From: Chloranthus sessilifolius
Taxonomy: Eukaryota; Streptophyta; Magnoliopsida; Chloranthales; Chloranthaceae
Assembly (NCBI GenBank): GCA_021018995.1
Contig: CM037589.1
Coordinates: 11,485,001 to 11,549,000 of the forward strand
Length of the DNA stretch: 64,000 nt
Direction of reading: 5' to 3'
In this document: one piece after another, positions 7,419-64,000 of the stretch
How the letters are laid out: the number at the start of each line of letters is the position of its first letter
How positions within the stretch are numbered: the stretch's first letter is position 1
Notes under the pieces: generated by a model
What the model was told of the DNA's origin: nothing
The model's database searches: none
What the model saw: the letters and a program-made list of their open reading frames with translations, nothing else
Translations under genes and position numbers: made by a program

Positions 7419-10400
7419 GTAATTTTGATTGCAAAATCAATCTGATTGATTTTTTATTCTATACCCTTTGCTGTGATTGGTGTAGAGCGCCGCCCTTTAA
7501 CTTTTCAAATGGCAGCTGTTGACATGGATTAATCACAGCTCAAGTAACATGGTGGTCTCCCACTACTCGAGTGAGGATTACACACTCTTTTGGTGGGGGC
7601 TAGCGATGGTGGACAGATAATAGTTATTTTACTGTAGATTTGGGAGGCGTGTATACCATAGATTCAGGGGCTTATACATAAAAGAAGGCTGTATAAGAAG
7701 CATATCCTATACATTTTCAAGAGTTAAACAAGGGCTTCAGCCCACACTGCTCCATGTGCTCCGTCCCTGCACGCACGCACACTATTTGATGTTTCCGTAT
7801 GATAGTCCCATCTGATGCACATGCTGCATTTGCTATATTTTGGAGAGATATATATGATTGTGATAAACTAGAAACCTCTATTTTGTCAGAAACACTTCTT
7901 CTAAATGGTTTTCTATCACTTTTCTGTTTGCTTATTTTTCATTGCCTAAATTTTATCTTTGTCCAGATGCTATTGTTTTACTCTGTGGGGTTGGTAATGG
8001 CCTCCACATTTTCAATTATTGTTCTAAAACTCGATGAATTGTCAATAGCATGCTTATACTAATAGTGTTCATAACTGAAATAATTACACTAATCCAAAAT
8101 GTCTAGATATTTCAATATTAGATGCATCAGATGTCAGCAATCTACCTTGAAGTTGCCTTTGACGTTCATAATTACCAAGTAGTCTCAATTTTATGTTTGT
8201 AGCGATGAAAGATCTTATAGAAATTGGGCCATTTTATGCCATCATGACTTCTTGATTGCGCCTCTATAGACAGATTGATCTTTGGAGGTCTTGTCCTTCT
8301 TTTTGTGTCTTTCTGTTCGACTTCCAATGTTTTTAATTTCAGTTCATAGTTCCATTTACTAAGCCCATAAGAGGGAGTAAGAAAGGGGGGCATTTTGCGT
8401 TGTATTTTTCTCGTTTAATAATTGATACTTTTATTTGCTCTCCTTCTTTTTGTGTCTTTCTGTTCGACTTCCAATGTTTTTTAATTTCTGTTCATAGTTC
8501 CATTTACTAAGCCCATAAGAGGGAGGAAGAAGGGGGGGCATTTTGCGTTGTATTTTTCTCGTTTAATAATTGATACTTTTATTTGCTATATGAAAATATG
8601 TCTCTTGTTACCATGGCGTTTTATACTCCTATATTGTTGCAGACACACAGTGTAAAGTTTCAAGATAGATCATGGGTGCCCACCTTATCTGTTGTTTTAA
8701 AGGATAAGAATCCAGATTCAAGAAATCGATTCAAACTATGCATGTCCATTCAACAAGCCAGCAGAACCAAAGTCACAGTTTCACCTATTGAACTTGAGGA
8801 TGCTAAAGAACCTCCTCTCAATACATACAAGAACAAGGCTCCTTATACTGCAATGATTGTTTCTGTTGAGAGGATTGTAGGGCCTAAAGCTCCTGGCGAG
8901 ACATGCCATATTGTGATTGATCATGACGGAAATGTTCCCTACTGGGAAGGACAGAGTTATGGAGTAATACCTCCCGTAAGTCACTTTATTTACTATATAT
9001 TAAATTATGGAAGTATTGGTATACCACAGAACCTCTGATTGATTGGTTGCTAGTTGATCTCTTCTGCAATTTATTATATATTACCAGTTGAAAACACACA
9101 TTATCTGAAAGATTTACCTTTTCTTTTAGTCGACAGAATCTTTTCTTTTCAAATAGACATTTGGTGTTGGTTGGTCTGTGTACAATTAGAATGATGCAAG
9201 CGGATATGTTTCAGTTCATAGAAAATGCAATGGTTGTGACCAAGGTGTTAGTATCGGTATCAGGTTTCGGCCCATCTTGGACTGATACGTATCGGCAGAT
9301 TTTTTTTAATTTTTTTTTTAAAAGGAAAAAAAAGAAAAAAGAAAGAGTTCTATTGATCAGTATTGGCCGAAACCGAGACAGTATGTCCGATACGGATACT
9401 GATACCACTCCGATACCTGTATCAGGGTGGTACAGTTCTCGACGAAAATGATACGATCGCCGATACGTATCGGTATCGGCTGAGTTTTGATACCATGGTT
9501 GTTACCACAACAATACTGACTAAAATACCCAAACATGTCACTGAAGGAACAGGAGGAAAAAAAGTGACCATAAAAAACTGTTTTATCCTTTTTCAGTCTG
9601 ACTGGTGATGAATTTATTGGAGATGGTAAAGTTCGTCTTATTTGTGACTTTTCATCCCTTCATACAGGGTGAAAACCCAAAGAAACCAGGGACTCCCAAC
9701 ACTGTTCGCCTGTACTCAATCGCATCGACCAGATATGGAGACTCATTTGATGGAAGGACTGCTAGCTTCTGTGTTCGACGTGCTATATATTATGACCCTG
9801 AGACTGGGAAAGAGGATCCTTCAAAGAACGGTATCTGCAGCAATTTCTTATGCAACTCAAAGCCAGGGGACAAAATTCAGCTAACAGGTAAAAACCTATT
9901 TTCCTCGTAGGAAAGTTAGAGCAACCCTCTCGATTCCCAAGGATTGAGTTTTTTACATTGTCAATACCATGTAGTTTTTTTGTTATTTATCTTTTCCTTT
10001 AATGCTTTGATCTCAAAGAATCAATCAAGTTGCAGATTTTCACTTTATTTAACACGAAACCACTTTATACATTTTTGTTGATCAAAAGTAGCCAAATCCA
10101 GATCACCGACAATAATAAGTCACTCGAGTGGCAGAGAGTTATGTCATTTGTTACAATTACATCAAGTCATTGAGACCCTGGTTCAATATTCCAGACGAGA
10201 AACCGATATGTATCGGTTTCGGGCCTGAGGTTTGATACATTAAATGATCCAACCATATAGTTTTGTATGTATCTGTATCAGTGTGTATCGGCTGATACAT
10301 ACTAATGTATCATTCAGAACTGATAAGTATCGCTTTTGGTGCTGGACGATACGTATGGGAAAACCGAAATTTAAACCCATGATTGAGACGCAGGATGCCT

Positions 10401-25935: not shown

Positions 25936-26261
25936 TCTATAAGCTCAACACCGGATTCCTCCTCACAGGAAGCCTCCACCGTTACGCCACCTCATCAATT
26001 TGTTAGCGGTTGATTCCTTTTTTGTTGTAATACCACTAACAGTTTACTGCTTATGGTTTGGATATGTATAGAATTCTTGGCATAAGTCCAGATAGGGGCG
26101 ATTATCCGTAATTGCCATGGGTCAAAAAATCGTATGATACCGATACATATCACCCGATACGTATCGGTTTTGGACCTAGGCGATACGATACATTGCCTAT
26201 GTATCGTACCCCCTAAAAAATAGGGTAATTATCGTCTGATAATTTGATTTTTAATTTTTTG

Positions 26262-26317
<56 letters not shown>

Positions 26318-26677
26318 AAACGATCACTATATTAAGTTAGCGGCCGCTAACATACCGCAGCGACCGCTAACTTAAAAAAATAAAATAAATAAATAAATAA
26401 TAATAAAATAAAGATAGCGGTATGTTAGTGGCCGCTATCTTAAGTTAGCGGCCGCTAACTTAATATATATATAAGATATCGACCGCTATCCTAAGATAGC
26501 GGCCGATATCCTAAGATATTGCTCATTCTCTGGATTATACCCAAAAAAAATATATTGAACCGATACATTCAATGTATCGCCGATACATTGAATGTATCGG
26601 ACGATATGCGATACGTATCGTCCTGAACTTCAAGACGATACGTATCGAAAATCCGATACCTTCTTCTCAGTCTTTCA
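25936..26677 (+). repeat. 3' LTR of the copia element, split by an insertion
   Basis: 25936-26111 matches the first 176 bp of the 5' LTR (first dinucleotide TC in place of TG). 26656-26677 (TACCTTCTTCTCAGTCTTTCA) matches its last 21 bp. The intervening bases belong to a composite repeat. The polypurine CAGGGG lies just before 25936. Confidence 0.9.
26112..26655. mobile_element. Composite repeat in the 3' LTR: TACGTATCGG MITE, (TA)n and bi-palindromic array
   Basis: The left end has CATGGGTCAAAAAATCG, the terminus of the hAT-like MITEs, followed by GATACGTATCGG words. (TA)n lies at 26263-26315. Then comes a 26336-26530 block of alternating palindromes including AGCGGCCGCT, AGTGGCCGCTATCTTAAG and ATCGACCGCT, with a perfect 24-bp palindrome at 26440-26463. 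More TACGTATCG words follow to 26650. The right MITE terminus is missing, so the boundary is inferred from the LTR match. Confidence 0.8.
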
Positions 26678-30006: not shown

Positions 30007-30590
30007 TGACACGAAATTCTATCATATGATTCTTTAAAGTCAACAATTAAATTTAATGATAAGTTTAAATAATGAATCGTCATCGTTCTACTAATCAGGC
30101 ATCACCGATTTGATAAAAGCTCGTCATCGCATTGATAAACACTAGTCACCAATCTTCTAATAAATCATTATCGCTCTAATAAGAAATCGCTACCGATCTG
30201 ATAAACAATCGTCATCGCTTGGATAATCAATCGTCATCATTCTTATATTTAAATTTAAAATTATCACGAATCTTGATAGCATCCAAGGTGATTCGAACAC
30301 AATGCCTATTTGTTGTGAAATCATACACTCTACCATTGCATTGTAAGTAACTTTGTTGCTAATGTTGGAACACTTTAATGTATATTAATATTTAAAAATC
30401 AGCGATACATAATAGCAAAATTAACGATTTATTATTTGAGCAATAACGATTTAATATCAGATCAGTGACGATTGGTTATCAAAACAGTAACAACTGGTTT
30501 TCAGAGCAATGACGATTCATTAGTTGAGCCTATTATTTATTATTTTGTTAGTTGACTATGATGAATCAAATAATAGAGAGCAAGTGTCAT
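30007..30590. mobile_element. Foldback-like element with repeat-built inverted arms
   Basis: The left arm (30039-30240) consists of degenerate units of about 25 bp such as GATAAACAATCGTCATCGC. The right arm (30415-30556) holds the same units inverted (GCAATGACGATTCATTAG, CAGTGACGATTGGTTATC). GTCAAC at 30039 is mirrored by GTTGAC at 30551, and the similarity continues outward to TTGACAC/GTGTCAT. The outer part resembles family A. The loop contains a tRNA-like segment. Confidence 0.65.
30285..30345 (-). other. tRNA-like A/B-box remnant, possible SINE head
   Basis: On the - strand CAATGGTAGAGTGTATGA resembles an A box and, about 35 nt on, GTGTTCGAATCACC resembles a B box. No complete tRNA cloverleaf can be drawn, so it is a decayed SINE or tRNA pseudogene, not a functional tRNA. 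Confidence 0.4.
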
Positions 30591-50149: not shown

Positions 50150-50340
50150 CTTTTAAAAGTCTAAAGAGAAATAAGAAAAAGAACTCCTTTTTACGAAAGC
50201 AATTTCAAGGTTGACCGTCACTTAAGTGATGGTCAACCTCCAAATCAAAGGTGGTTAACCACGTTTCTTTTCGTGGTCAACCATCAAAGTTTTGTTGGTT
50301 AACCACGAAAGGAAACGTGATCAACTGTTAAACCCATAGT
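49556..50340 (-). repeat. Primer-binding site and putative 5' LTR/leader of the antisense copia fragment
   Basis: On the - strand TTGGTATCAGAGAAAGG (about 49572-49556) is the initiator-tRNA primer site, 26 nt before the gag start. An LTR should therefore end at about 49574 and extend rightward; its outer end was not located. The segment contains (TA)n at 50117-50148 and a cluster of palindromes at 50208-50330. Confidence 0.6.
50208..50330. repeat. Three adjacent GGTTGACC/GGTTAACC stem-loops
   Basis: Positions 50210-50239 are a 30-bp palindrome (GGTTGACCG...TGGTCAACC) with one mismatched pair. GGTTAACCACG...CGTGGTCAACC and GGTTAACCACG...CGTGATCAAC follow directly. Confidence 0.75.
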
Positions 50341-51534: not shown

Positions 51535-51737
51535 CATGGATCAAAATACCGGAAAACCGGTACGTATTGGACGATACGTATCGGTACCAGTCCATATCGA
51601 ACGATGCATTGAATGTAACGTTCAATACATACATATATTTTAACGATACGGTACGTTTAATGTACCGTATCGTTCACGTCTAATACTGAGACGTATCGTC
51701 CGATATGTATCGGTATCGGACGATATTTTGATCCATG
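51535..51737. mobile_element. hAT-like MITE with CATGGATCAAAA ends and TACGTATCGG body
   Basis: CATGGATCAAAATACCGG to TTTTGATCCATG, flanked by TCTTAGAC (51527-51534) and TCTTAGAT (51738-51745), an 8-bp duplication with one mismatch. It joins the terminus of the TTTCGGCC subgroup to the body of the TACGTATCGG subgroup. Confidence 0.9.
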
Positions 51738-51866
51738 TCTTAGATTCATTTTAAGTGCTCATTGAAACGATTCCGTTAAAATTGGACGAAGAACAAGCAA
51801 ATTATGCATATTTCAATTTTTAGATGTGAATGTTTGAATAATTGCACTTCAATTTTTTTCTTAGGG

Positions 51867-54224: not shown

Positions 54225-54846
54225 GATCAAAATTTCGGCCGAAATGACCAAAATTATCGGTTTCCATCCCCACCGAAACAATAATTTGAACCGAAATTTC
54301 TGTCCAAATTTGTATGAGACCCAAAATTTTAGTTTTCAGCCAAAATTTTACCCGAAATTTCTAATTTGGAGAATTTTGTGACTGCCCCAAGTAATAGAAG
54401 TGAGCCATTTTCCATAATTAAAACATTTATAGCAAGGATCAAAATTTTGGATTAAATTTTGGTTTCGGACATGACCGAAACCGAAATCCAAAATCCAAAA
54501 TTTTGAGCCCTATATAAAAATGAACCAAAATTTCGGTCCCATATTATCGTTTCAGTGGAGACCGAAACCGATAATTTTGGCCAAGATTTCGGCCGAAATT
54601 TTGGAGAATTTTGTGACTGCCCCAAGTAATAGAAGTGAGCCATTTTCCATAATTAAAACATTTATAGCAAGGATCAAAATTTTGGATTAAATTTTGGTTT
54701 CGGACATGACCGAAACCGAAATCCAAAATTCAAAATTTTGAGCCCTATATAAAAATGAACCAAAATTTCGGTCCCATATTATCGTTTCAGTGGAGACCGA
54801 AACCGATAATTTTGGCCAAGATTTTGGCCGAAATTTTGATCCTTGT
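54225..54846. repeat. hAT-like TTTCGGCC MITEs with a 235-bp tandem duplication
   Basis: CAAGGATCAAAA starts occur near 54224, 54433 and 54668; the last element ends TTTTGATCCTTG at 54846. The second and third copies are almost identical, 235 bp apart, and include the non-MITE spacer GACTGCCCCAAGTAATAG. The outer flanks ATTTATAG and TGTTATAG agree at six of eight positions. Confidence 0.8.
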
Positions 54847-59465: not shown

Positions 59466-59560
59466 ATACGCCCCCATCAAATATTAAGTGCATCCTCACT
59501 AATATCTAAAGTTTGTATTATTCTCTCAAAAAGAAAGAAAAAAAAAAGTTATTTATTTAT

Positions 59561-59660
59561 GGGAAATTTGCACTTTCAGCCCTATATGTTTGCGTATTTG
59601 CAGAAACGGCCCTATAGTTTCAATCCTTGCATAAATGGCCAGCTCCAAGCCTAGCCGGGT
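59561..59660. repeat. Candidate left terminal repeat of the MULE
   Basis: GGGAAATTTGCACTTTCAGC, TTTGCGTATTTGCAGAAACG and GCATAAATGGCCAG follow the pattern of plant MULE terminal inverted repeats (GGG-AATTTGCA...ATTTGCA-A-A-GGCC). The partner would be right of the window. An A-rich and ATTTATTTAT stretch precedes it. Confidence 0.45.
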
Positions 59661-59881: not shown

Positions 59882-59951
59882 ATTTTAAGATATCGTCCGA
59901 TAACTTAAGATATCGACCGATAACTTAAGATATCGGTCGATATCTTAAAAG
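59882..59951. repeat. Left bi-palindromic array, 20-bp period, about 3.5 units
   Basis: ATCGTCCGAT (59892), ATCGACCGAT (59912) and ATCGGTCGAT (59932) are exactly 20 bp apart, separated by AACTTAAGAT. A further degenerate unit lies near 60015. Same design as 63081-63480. Confidence 0.85.
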
Positions 59952-60169: not shown

Positions 60170-62580
60170 AAATGGATGTTCCCCTTCTTTGCCATTTTGA
60201 TTTAAATGCAGCGTGAGAGATAATACTTACAACGGAGGACATCGGAGGATTGTCCTTTGTCACGGAGAATATATCATTTCTTTGAGTTTATAGAGAAAAT
60301 GTACAAAAGTCGATCGGACACGTAGGAAGAACATTCTATTACATTTCGTTTCATTACGCATAGGGAATGAGCTTGTATTTGCCGAATTGTATCGACTCGA
60401 TGATCTTACAAACTTATTTAGAGCATATCGTATCGGTGATGGTGTTATAAATATTTATATCGAAAATCATTAGTCACTCTTGTGGCGAAATTTTGCCGTC
60501 TTTAGAAACATTTCAACCGTTTAAGGAAACAAGCGAAGATGATCATGGTGTTGGAGCAGAACATTTGATTGAAAATCAAGGAATACGGTATGAAGAGGAG
60601 AACATTGTTGCAATAATAGCCCGATGATAAATATAAATATAGGATTCCGCCCCTACACAAGAACTTCCGAGCAACCCTATTCGGACATTCGGTAGTGAAG
60701 GCGATGAAGATCAAGGATATTCTCATCAAGCGAATCCGATGCATGATACATCTCGATTCAACGATTCGATTCGTCGGTGGGAAACATTTTTAGTCGGCCT
60801 TAGTCCATATCAATGGCCTTCGGAACAAATAGCTTCGGAGCCTTCAACAGCACACCCTCTCATACATCAAACATTCTCGCATCGGCTAACATCAATCCAA
60901 ACAAGTGCACATCAACCAAGCGTACATCGACGGGCTCAATCTCAATCACGTAACCATCCAACCATGACGGTGATAGTGATCCCGAAAATAATGAAGCCAC
61001 CGTCTCCACTTCGCGTGTTTATACTAATAGAATTGATCAACCTCCGTGGGCGAAGACTATCGACTTAATGACTCGGAAGGGAGTACATGGATTGAGACGA
61101 TGAGGCATGAAGGGGAACGATTACCATTGGTCGAGCGTTTAGAAATAAGAAATCATTTCAAAAGTTCTTAAAGAATTTGCGATGACAAATAATTTTGATT
61201 AAACCAATAAAACCAGTCCTCTTCGAGTAATCGAGGTGTGTTGAAGTAGGATGTGCTTGGCGAATACATGCATCGAAATTAGTAGGCGTAGACACGTTTG
61301 CTGTGAAAACTTTCCACCCGAAACACACGTGCGGAATGCCAGCTTTTGGAAGCGGACATCGCCAATGTACGACATCGTGGATAGCTTCATTCTTTAGAGA
61401 TAAACTATTAAAGGGTTTTGACGAGACTCTGATAATTTTGATATTGAAAAAAATACGGTATAACTTGATGGGATTCTTTGGAAAGCATGAGAGGAAAAGA
61501 AATGGCGTTGAATGACATCCGAGGTAGTTAGAAGGAGCAATTTAAGATGTTACCGTCATATGTTTTCGAATTACGTGGTCGATCCGGCATAAATTGTGTC
61601 TCGAGCGATAATGCATTTAAGAGATTCTTCGTGGCATTCGGACCTTGCATTGAAGCTTTGTAATACTTTCGAAGAATAATTATGTAGATGGAACGCATTT
61701 ATGCGTGGACGATATAAGGGTGTTGTTAATAGCTACGGGAATGAGCGGGAATAGACATTTATTTCCTATAGCGTTCGTTGTCGAAAAGAAAATGAAGACC
61801 ATTGGACATGGTTTCTTGATCTATTAGGGAGGCGTGTAATCGGTGAATTTGAAGAAACGGTTTGTTTTGATATCGATGCAGAAAGGTTTGATGGAAGCGA
61901 TGAAAAGTTTTTCCTAATGCCTTTCACACATCGACACACAGCTCTAAATCTGTTTGATAAATATAAGGATACAATCTCTAGACCGCTTTTTGGGTTCTTT
62001 GCCGTGCATTTCGAAGCAAAATTTAAATGAATTATGCGAAAAATAGAAGCGACACCCACTTGAAATGTACAAAATGGATTAAAGAAATTGGTGATCATTT
62101 GCACAGCGCTTATTTCAAGGGAGGCGTTATGATATGTTGACAACTAATATAGTTGAAAGCATAAATAGTGTGTTGAAAATACCGGGGAGGAACCGATTGT
62201 GAGCATGTTAGAAACTATTCGCATAAAAGTCCGAATTTTATCTTCGCCGAGGAAGGAAATAAATGACACATGTGTTAACACCGATGGCGTAAAACACATA
62301 AAAAGAAATTCGAGGATGGGCCCATCGAACGTCATACCATATGGTCGTGATATATTTCAAGTTAAGCGTGGTGATTACACTCATAGTGTCGATCTAGAAT
62401 CGCGAACATGTACATGCAGGCGTTGGGCTATTCTTGGATTACCATGTTCATCACGATTGCCGCATTATCGCCAAAACAGAAGAGAGATCCCCCAATTTTG
62501 TGAACACTGGTTTTACCGGTGACTTATTTAGGAAAACTTACAAAGAACACTTTGTCCCGACTGCTTGACAAGCGCCAATG
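60170..62580 (+). pseudogene. MULE transposase pseudogene
   Basis: Pieces in several frames follow the order of a plant MULE transposase. A zinc-binding FLYWCH/DBD-like part lies at about 61150-61400. The DDE core starts near 61690 (VDGTHL or DGTHLCVDDI), then IATGMSGNRHLFPIAFVVE, QKGLMEAMKSF (the usual SDRQKGL has lost its catalytic Asp), LFQGRRYDMLTTNIVESINS and SVLKIPGRNR. A SWIM zinc finger follows at about 62340-62460 (FQVKRGDYTHSVDLESRT, CTCRRWAILGLPCSS; the final His of C-x-H is missing), then GDLFRKTYKEHFVPT. Many stops and frameshifts; not functional. Confidence 0.85.
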
Positions 62581-63080
62581 GACTTCGTAAATAAAAGACA
62601 TTCAAGTTTTGCCTCCCACAAAATACGTCAAGCCGGCCGTCCAAGAAAAGGAGAACAAGATCTAAAGGGAAGTTCGACCACTACAATGTAAAAATTGTAA
62701 CAAATGCGGTCATAATAAATTTAGTGTAAATTTGTTAATATTTGAAATTAACTTATATTACATCAAAGGTTGAGATTGAAAACAGATTTAGATTAGATTA
62801 GACCTAGTGGCAATCGAGCTTCCAATGATTTCATTATAGAAGAGTATTTTTTTTTTCTCTTTTTCTTTCCTTCAATATAAACAGATTAAACCTCAATAAA
62901 AGAGCGATCAACATCTATAAATTAATTAATATATTTTTTTGAAATTGTGACTAAAATATATTGTTGTGCTTCTTAATAAATCATTCATTCATTCAAACAG
63001 GATTTGAAGTTTCCAAATTCGCCCCTAATTTACTAGTGATTGGCATAAAGCCAAACCAAAGATATCAGGCTTCACAATTC
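62581..63080. other. AT-rich spacer between transposase and array
   Basis: No coding signature or further repeat recognised. Confidence 0.5.
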
Positions 63081-63492
63081 AGAAAGGTATATCTTAAATC
63101 ATCGTCAGATATCTTAAATCATCGGCCGATATCTTAAATCATCGGGCGATGATTTAAATTATCGGCCGATGTTTTGAAATATCGTCCGATGTTTTAAAAT
63201 ATCGTCCGATTTTTTAAAATATCGGTCGATATCTTAAATCATCGGTCGATGATTTAAATCATCGCCCGATGATTTAAGATATCGGCCGATGATTTAAGAT
63301 ATCGGACGATGATTTAAATCATCGGCCGATGATTTAAGATATCGGCCGATATTTTAAATCATCGGCCGATGATTTAAGCTATCGTCCGATTATTTAAAAT
63401 ATCGTCCTATAATTTAAATCATCGGCCGATAATTTGAGATATCGGACGATGATTTAAATTATCGGCCGATGATATAAGTCATCGGCCTATTG
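63081..63492. repeat. Right bi-palindromic array, 20-bp period, about 20 units
   Basis: From 63101 onward each 20 bp is one ATCGNNCGAT decamer plus one A/T-rich decamer centred on TTTAA or TTAAA (GATTTAAATC, GATTTAAGAT, ATCTTAAATC). Both decamers are self-complementary in their commonest form. The period is exactly 20 bp with no insertion or deletion across the array, although bases vary. In the first decamer variation falls mainly on the two central positions (GC, TC, GT, GA, CC, GG). It lies between the MULE transposase and the Ulp1 fragment. Confidence 0.97.
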
Positions 63493-63670: not shown

Positions 63671-64000
63671 TTAAATCTTCTTCCCAAACGTGCACATTCG
63701 ATGTCCGATTTCGGCTCTAAATTGTTGCATATGTTTATCGTCGAAATCAATAGGCCGCTGTTGGGAGAAGTACTCTATATACTTCAAAATGTATACACCG
63801 CAATCCCAACCGTTCTTTTGGATCGAGAAACGGCTGATGACGCCGATACCTTCCACTGTTGATCGAAAGCTGACTTCAAACCGATAGTGTAAAGAAGGTG
63901 CGGAAGGTGATTCAATAGACATTCTTTATACGCTTTAAACCTTTTTGAGCACTCTCGGTCTGCTGGATCAATTAGCTTAATTTCTCGATCAACTAATGAA
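63671..64000 (-). pseudogene. Ulp1-like cysteine protease (C48) C-terminal fragment, frameshifted, cut by window edge
   Basis: Reading leftward from the edge, one frame gives SLVDREIKLIDPADREC and KRFKAYKECLLNHLP. A shift to another frame then gives GVISRFSIQKNGWDCGVYI and LKYIEYFSQQRPIDF, ending MCTFGKKI at a stop (63671). Q-x-N-x-x-D-C-G is the Gln/Cys active-site segment of Ulp1/SENP (SUMO-type) proteases. The catalytic His region would lie beyond the window. The in-frame stop just before 63922 shows the frame is broken. Such domains occur in host proteins and in MULE and CACTA transposons; the neighbour suggests transposon origin. Convergent with the transposase. Confidence 0.75.

Follow-up and report, generated by a model that had tools for sequence, protein, structure and literature searches.

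A palindromic 20-bp array in a Ulp1-carrying MULE of Chloranthus sessilifolius is a probable binding-site bank for a VANC-like anti-silencing protein

What is the role of an array of short palindromes that keeps an exact 20-bp register while substituting bases freely? The question is raised by an array, here called array 2, near the end of the 64,000-nucleotide stretch of Chloranthus sessilifolius DNA that we analysed (the window). Tandem Repeats Finder (TRF) reported 19.9 copies, and 19 full units lie in register at 63101-63480, matching the roughly 20 consecutive units that an earlier note had seen in the sequence. ATCG is intact in all 19 units, the columns of CGAT are conserved in 18, 18, 19 and 19 of them and those of TTAA in 18, 19, 17 and 19; variation is seen at the two bases in the centre and at three positions on each flank of TTAA. 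These counts bear out the idea that the ATCG and CGAT half-sites are kept around a free spacer, and they place a conserved block in the second decamer too, where its extent is TTAA instead of the TTTAA core first described. Both conserved blocks are palindromic, and the array therefore forms a lattice with one dyad per 10 bp. Across the window, ATCGNNCGAT was counted 26 times, where shuffles give an expectation of 0.53. In our reading, a VANC-like anti-silencing protein, the product of the DUF1985-Ulp1 gene of the same MULE, probably binds at four banks of sites, and array 2 is one of these banks. None of the literature matches listed describes this array.

Array 2 belongs to a complete element of 7,873 bp that begins in the window and ends in its continuation, L005 (Table 1). 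Its four arrays are located before the transposase gene, between the two genes, after the DUF1985 exon and close to the right end. The transposase gene, whose outer limits were set by reading the sequence, is assigned to the MULEs by a SWIM match above the cut-off (ORF 62169-62522, E 3.9e-5) and by colinear copies, the window copy itself being decayed; a DBD_Tnp_Mut match (ORF 61231-61515, E 2.1e-4) fell below the cut-off. The Peptidase_C48 match of the partner gene (E 3.7e-9) is on the minus strand and the transposase on the plus strand, so Ulp1 runs in reverse orientation. The 9-bp target-site duplication is weak evidence alone, as the flanks are TTTA-rich. Strictly speaking, its terminal inverted repeats (TIRs), which match at 88 of 97 bp, set the element apart from VANDALs, with their degenerate or absent TIRs, and also from Kaonashi elements with their non-TIR ends. 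No DUF287 was reported in the exon-1 ORF of the copy L052 or in nine ORFs of L005, scanned singly and unspliced. We describe the element as a Ulp1-carrying MULE with TIRs and a VANC-like system.

Table 1. Features of the element carrying array 2, in window positions unless another locus is named.
Feature	Position	Strand	Remarks
Left target-site duplication TTTATTTAT	59552..59560	.	same 9 bp after the right end at C6:11552433
Left terminal inverted repeat	59561..59657	+	88/97 bp identical to right end; without ATCGNNCGAT
Array 1	59885..59948	.	three exact units, upstream of transposase gene
MULE transposase gene	60170..62620	+	decayed in window copy; DBD_Tnp_Mut and SWIM domain matches
Array 2	63089..63487	.	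ATCG-N2-CGAT-N3-TTAA-N3, period 20, between convergent transposase and Ulp1 genes
Partner gene, 3' part, Ulp1 Peptidase_C48 region	63671..64000	-	runs past window end
Array 3	L005:2198-2530 (past window)		probable intron, judged from its position
DUF1985 exon	L005:3368-3913 (past window)		
Array 4	past window, near right end		two exact units
Right terminal inverted repeat	ends at C6:11552433		

The 32 exact motifs of the element fall into the four non-coding gaps (3, 17, 10 and 2 in arrays 1-4, by segment limits of our own), and none occurs in the TIRs or in the transposase, Ulp1 or DUF1985 segments. Short tandem motifs in non-coding regions are also a feature of the VANDAL/VANC system, and the distribution found here makes improbable the transposase landing platform that the earlier note had suggested. 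According to that explanation, the transposase docks on the arrays and draws the ends together, as on the subterminal repeats of other transposons. It would agree with arrays 1 and 4, which are short and start 331 and 378 bp from the ends, and with the first 2 Mb of C1, where clustered sites are located in four MULE copies. However, arrays 2 and 3, the largest with 17 and 10 exact sites, are 3.5 and 1.9 kb away from whichever end is closer, and the TIRs themselves are free of the motif. The linkage to MULEs holds for the clustered sites; for seven isolated two-unit places in the same 2 Mb no MULE was traced, and L013, the only one of them inspected, is a foldback-like repeat. Alternatively, array 2 could be a terminator or insulator, or consist of host-factor sites, a reading for which its position exactly between two convergent genes speaks. 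We regard this as quite improbable, as it leaves unexplained both arrays 1, 3 and 4 with the same motif and the family-specific half-sites described below.

The array is a recurrent part of the family. Across the 2.17-Gb genome, the two-unit pattern has 13,320 matches and its reversed control has none. The DUF1985 ORF as a query gave 150 scored copies, each with at least 88% identity, out of 5,832 candidates, and 20 of the 149 other copies were fetched, selected on DUF1985 similarity only. The intron array was present in all 20 and the intergenic array in 19, the exception being L029 by a threshold of four sites; with the window copy and three copies found through their arrays, this becomes 24/24 and 23/24. 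Array 2 ranges from 6 to 22 sites across copies, and array 1 has 5-9 exact sites in four other copies. Among 564 neighbour spacings in arrays 2 and 3 of 24 elements (sites counted with at most one mismatch), 516 are 20 bp and 13 are 40 bp. Indel-free, as the array had first been described, is thus accurate for the register of the window copy, and the family is rather indel-poor (529/564). A 21-bp ATCG class, intended as an indel control, has 5,618 places in the genome; three inspected copies look like small foldback-like repeats, not full MULEs, and the approximately 50 places listed are mostly other sequences with TTTSAAA or ATTSAAT centres, with one clear A-type indel by eye (C1:1889555). 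Thirty-nine other copies have a left TIR of 99-100% identity (40 were scored among 2,002 candidates), so the family has moved recently. Four copies outside the DUF1985 list were examined through the TIR for short non-autonomous elements, and had no exact right-TIR end within 3 kb.

We next compared the pattern of substitutions in 328 units of array 2 (22 elements) and 219 units of array 3 (24 elements). Because units were extracted where they loosely matched the A decamer, the columns of that decamer are slightly favoured; the TTAA columns are unaffected. The pooled columns of both arrays have in common the core TCG-N2-CGA and a central TA; the remaining columns differ, and array 3 additionally retains some flanking A/T columns. 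When ATCG, CGAT and the central TA are taken as core and columns 5, 6, 11-13 and 18-20 as spacer, differences within arrays amount to 0.047 in the core versus 0.476 in the spacer for array 2, and to 0.105 versus 0.300 for array 3. The core was below the spacer in 21/21 elements for either array. For the segment between the arrays, comparison of the window copy with 21 others gave differences of 0.061-0.170 (L029 and L033 were left out, their border being undefined) and 1.6-2.4 gap openings per 100 bp; it keeps 0.54-0.75 of its CpGs, and 602/656 and 415/438 array CpGs are intact, although the two are not measures of the same kind. In the close pair of the window copy and L015, which have equal unit numbers, the difference is 0.013 for ATCG/CGAT, 0.105 for the central NN and 0.053 for the B decamer; their neighbouring segment differs by 0.074 and keeps 0.69 of its CpGs.

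These results weigh on a neutral satellite or slippage product that came to lie in the transposon by chance. Such an origin would fit the freely varying unit number, but it is at odds with the strongly position-biased substitutions, with the retention of the register and of CpGs against expected decay, and with the recurrence of one core in different gaps of the element and across most of the copies read. Already disfavoured, it is now hardly credible: neither frequent indels nor a lack of positional bias, which the earlier note had named as signs of a neutral satellite, is seen in the 20-bp class. The same evidence supports that note's comparison to an array of two-half-site protein targets at nearly two helical turns per unit, with substitutions mostly in the spacers and a link to MULEs.

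Selection for base pairing, in a hairpin, a cruciform or a source of small RNAs, is a further alternative. The array RNA folds at -249.6 kcal/mol (z -24.7), far better than dinucleotide shuffles, and the array of the window is among 5/21 that fold better than nearly all of their unit-permuted versions; moreover, tandem repeats can be a source of siRNA according to the part of PMC10398659 consulted. This fold is nevertheless largely a consequence of the palindromic core, and in the other 16/21 arrays the long-range fold was matched or beaten by more than one of 40 unit-permuted versions. The spacers also speak against pairing. Across TTAA, complementarity in array 2 of 22 elements is 0.22 for the outermost pair where column shuffles predict 0.42, and 0.34 versus 0.44 and 0.44 versus 0.53 for the others, as though the units favoured one orientation or selection acted against cruciforms. 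Spacer pairs in array 3 are at or below expectation except for columns 14/17 (0.58 versus 0.52). The hairpin and small-RNA reading, also raised in the earlier note, is therefore very unlikely.

The second gene of the element has a DUF1985 exon that resembles VANC21, and its product is a better candidate than the transposase for binding the arrays. A model of the whole 445-aa exon-1 protein proved poor (pLDDT 48.6; nothing in Foldseek at E 0.001 or better), and the domain was modelled alone instead. Foldseek gave no match to the domain model at E 0.001 or better and did not have VANC21 among the best 50 matches; VIA-align over 476 chains listed VANC21 first. The exon is related to VANC21 in its sequence profile and in its predicted fold, and the partner protein combines DUF1985 with a predicted VANC DNA-binding fold. 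This relationship, together with the co-variation of protein and motif described below, suggests that the DUF1985 protein binds the lattice. That it may remove methylation is suggested by what is published for VANC21 (PMC5735166 and PMC10398659, in the parts consulted).

The system most similar to this one is that of the Arabidopsis VANDAL transposons with their VANC proteins (VANC21 and VANC6; PDB 9lnj and 9lnk). It is likewise borne by MULEs, encodes a DUF1985 protein related in profile and predicted fold, and has a short motif in tandem repeats of introns, intergenic and terminal non-coding regions, with a motif that varies among related families and a unit number that varies among copies. 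The differences lie in the 97-bp TIRs here, where VANDALs have degenerate ones, in the Ulp1 partner of the window element, and in the motif: the part of PMC5735166 consulted gives the nonamer YAGTATTAY for VANC21, whereas the present unit is the dyad-symmetric ATCG-N2-CGAT-N3-TTAA-N3 at 20 bp. Ulp1 in reverse orientation to the transposase is shared with the Kaonashi (KIU) MULEs of Arabidopsis and with Ulp1 MULEs of melon, grapevine and rice (passages of PMC2528002), but KIU elements are non-TIR, unlike the window element. Passages of a 2026 review (PMC13317346) state that in KIU Vandals the VANC genes with Ulp1 recognise motifs located in non-coding regions. The passages compared describe no array of this kind in the melon, grapevine and rice elements, and the term "tandem repeat" is absent from PMC2528002.

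If the preferred reading of array 2 as a docking bank is correct, the DUF1985 module would dock on the lattice, with the ATCG/CGAT pair and TTAA each serving as a dyad, so that a single face of the helix presents a dyad at 10-bp intervals. The bound protein would clear DNA methylation and silent marks from the non-coding regions of the element, its Ulp1 domain may take SUMO off silencing factors, and the transposase and partner gene of the cleared element would be expressed, allowing copies to move. Array length would shift by whole units, and the half-sites would change along with the DUF1985 protein, keeping the system of each family private. This would extend sequence-specific anti-silencing beyond the non-TIR VANDALs to a large, recently moving family of TIR MULEs, and could provide modular docking arrays for epigenome work.

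A wider proposal is possible, though we rate it at rather less than even: one plant genome would harbour several parallel VANC-like MULE systems (the window family with TIRs), each protein with its own dyad lattice of about two turns (ATCG-N2-CGAT, AGCG-N2-CGCT, RRGCG-N4-CGCYY and perhaps more). Bound DUF1985 would form a continuous filament, one dyad per 10 bp, and in Ulp1 families a SUMO protease tethered to the array would remove SUMO from the silencing machinery. DUF1985 proteins of graded divergence beside lattices whose half-sites differ by as little as a single letter would form a natural code table, and a change of DNA target by such a protein would be directly testable, with the solved VANC21-DNA structure for comparison. 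This kind of system is already known; as far as we have checked, the novelty lies in the lattice of dyads, in the sort of element that carries it and in the existence of several parallel codes within one genome. A study by Sasaki et al. (2022, EMBO J) reportedly covers the antisilencing systems of Mu-like transposons in eudicots; the eudicot VANC systems are said to have diversified via gain and loss of DUF1985, DUF287, Ulp1 and motifs, with motif sequence, density and helical periodicity said to determine specificity.

To see how motifs change with the protein, we read 18 divergent DUF1985 loci (4 kb each). TRF with a consensus dyad score did not discriminate alone as a cross-family test: TRF found arrays of 17-24 bp in 15/18 loci versus 5/14 control slices of the window, several clade-B arrays fell short of p 0.05, and some slices, an unclean control, had dyad arrays of their own. 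Direct motif counts were used instead, with a control that permuted two-base blocks and is cruder than a true dinucleotide shuffle. RRGCG-N4-CGCYY is present in 5/5 clade-B loci (28 observed versus 0.13 expected) and absent from the 13 other loci; four clade-B loci contain 21-22-bp arrays and L044 a degenerate one. These counts make a good case, at the level of sequence, for co-variation of protein and motif between clade B and the window family.

For the AGCG group, such co-variation is suggestive. L049, the sister of the window family (64% identical to the window copy and 68% to L052), has four occurrences of AGCG-N3-CGCT at two locations, of which one is a 21-bp array. The pure two-unit form of AGCG-N2-CGCT with TTAA at 20 bp occurs at 175 genome places versus 0 in the control; AGCG-N2-CGCT at 21 bp has only 8 places versus 1. 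L059 and L060, picked for their AGCG sites, have DUF1985 74-75% identical to L052 and lack the Ulp1 segment and array 2, reflecting either loss or a state before the gain of Ulp1. AGCG accounts for 36/50 half-sites in their mixed arrays and for 16/16 in the one that follows the DUF1985 exon, compared to 6/736 in the 20 DUF1985-chosen copies; a single site within the L059 transposase was excluded from these counts. The stretches read showed no clear palindromic array in clade D (4 loci) or in 6/8 clade-C loci; L040 and L051 have a three-copy 18-bp repeat with a dyad score not beyond shuffles, and the palindromic arrays of the clade-C loci L037 and L050 lie outside the part common to their relatives.

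Several other repeats were observed in these sequences. The clade-B loci L041, L042, L043 and L045 contain, at approximately 2220-2725, long repeats of AGCCCAAGCCCC-like units that would be proline-rich if coding; variable repeated peptide regions are reported for VANC proteins in the part of PMC5735166 consulted. In the window, a related array at 26320-26520 consists of AGCG-N2-CGCT with TTAA or CTAA at 20 bp and has mixed ATCG/AGCG half-sites. Small foldback-like repeats rich in CGATACGTATCG and CGATACATTSAATGTATCG are found at 26140-26640 and 51560-51760 of the window and at L013:3780-3990, and such sequences occur among the listed 21-bp ATCGNNCGAT pairs; they are possibly non-autonomous elements with a sister motif. 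A 22-bp array of TGGTGGTCAACCACCAAAGTTT at 50227-50311 has a strong dyad (0.82) and is perhaps a relic of another such family, and two 22-bp arrays at 30069-30238 and 30422-30543 have no clear consensus dyad. The window further contains tandem duplications of 235 bp (54365-54838, 99% match) and 148 bp (8294-8587, 97% match).
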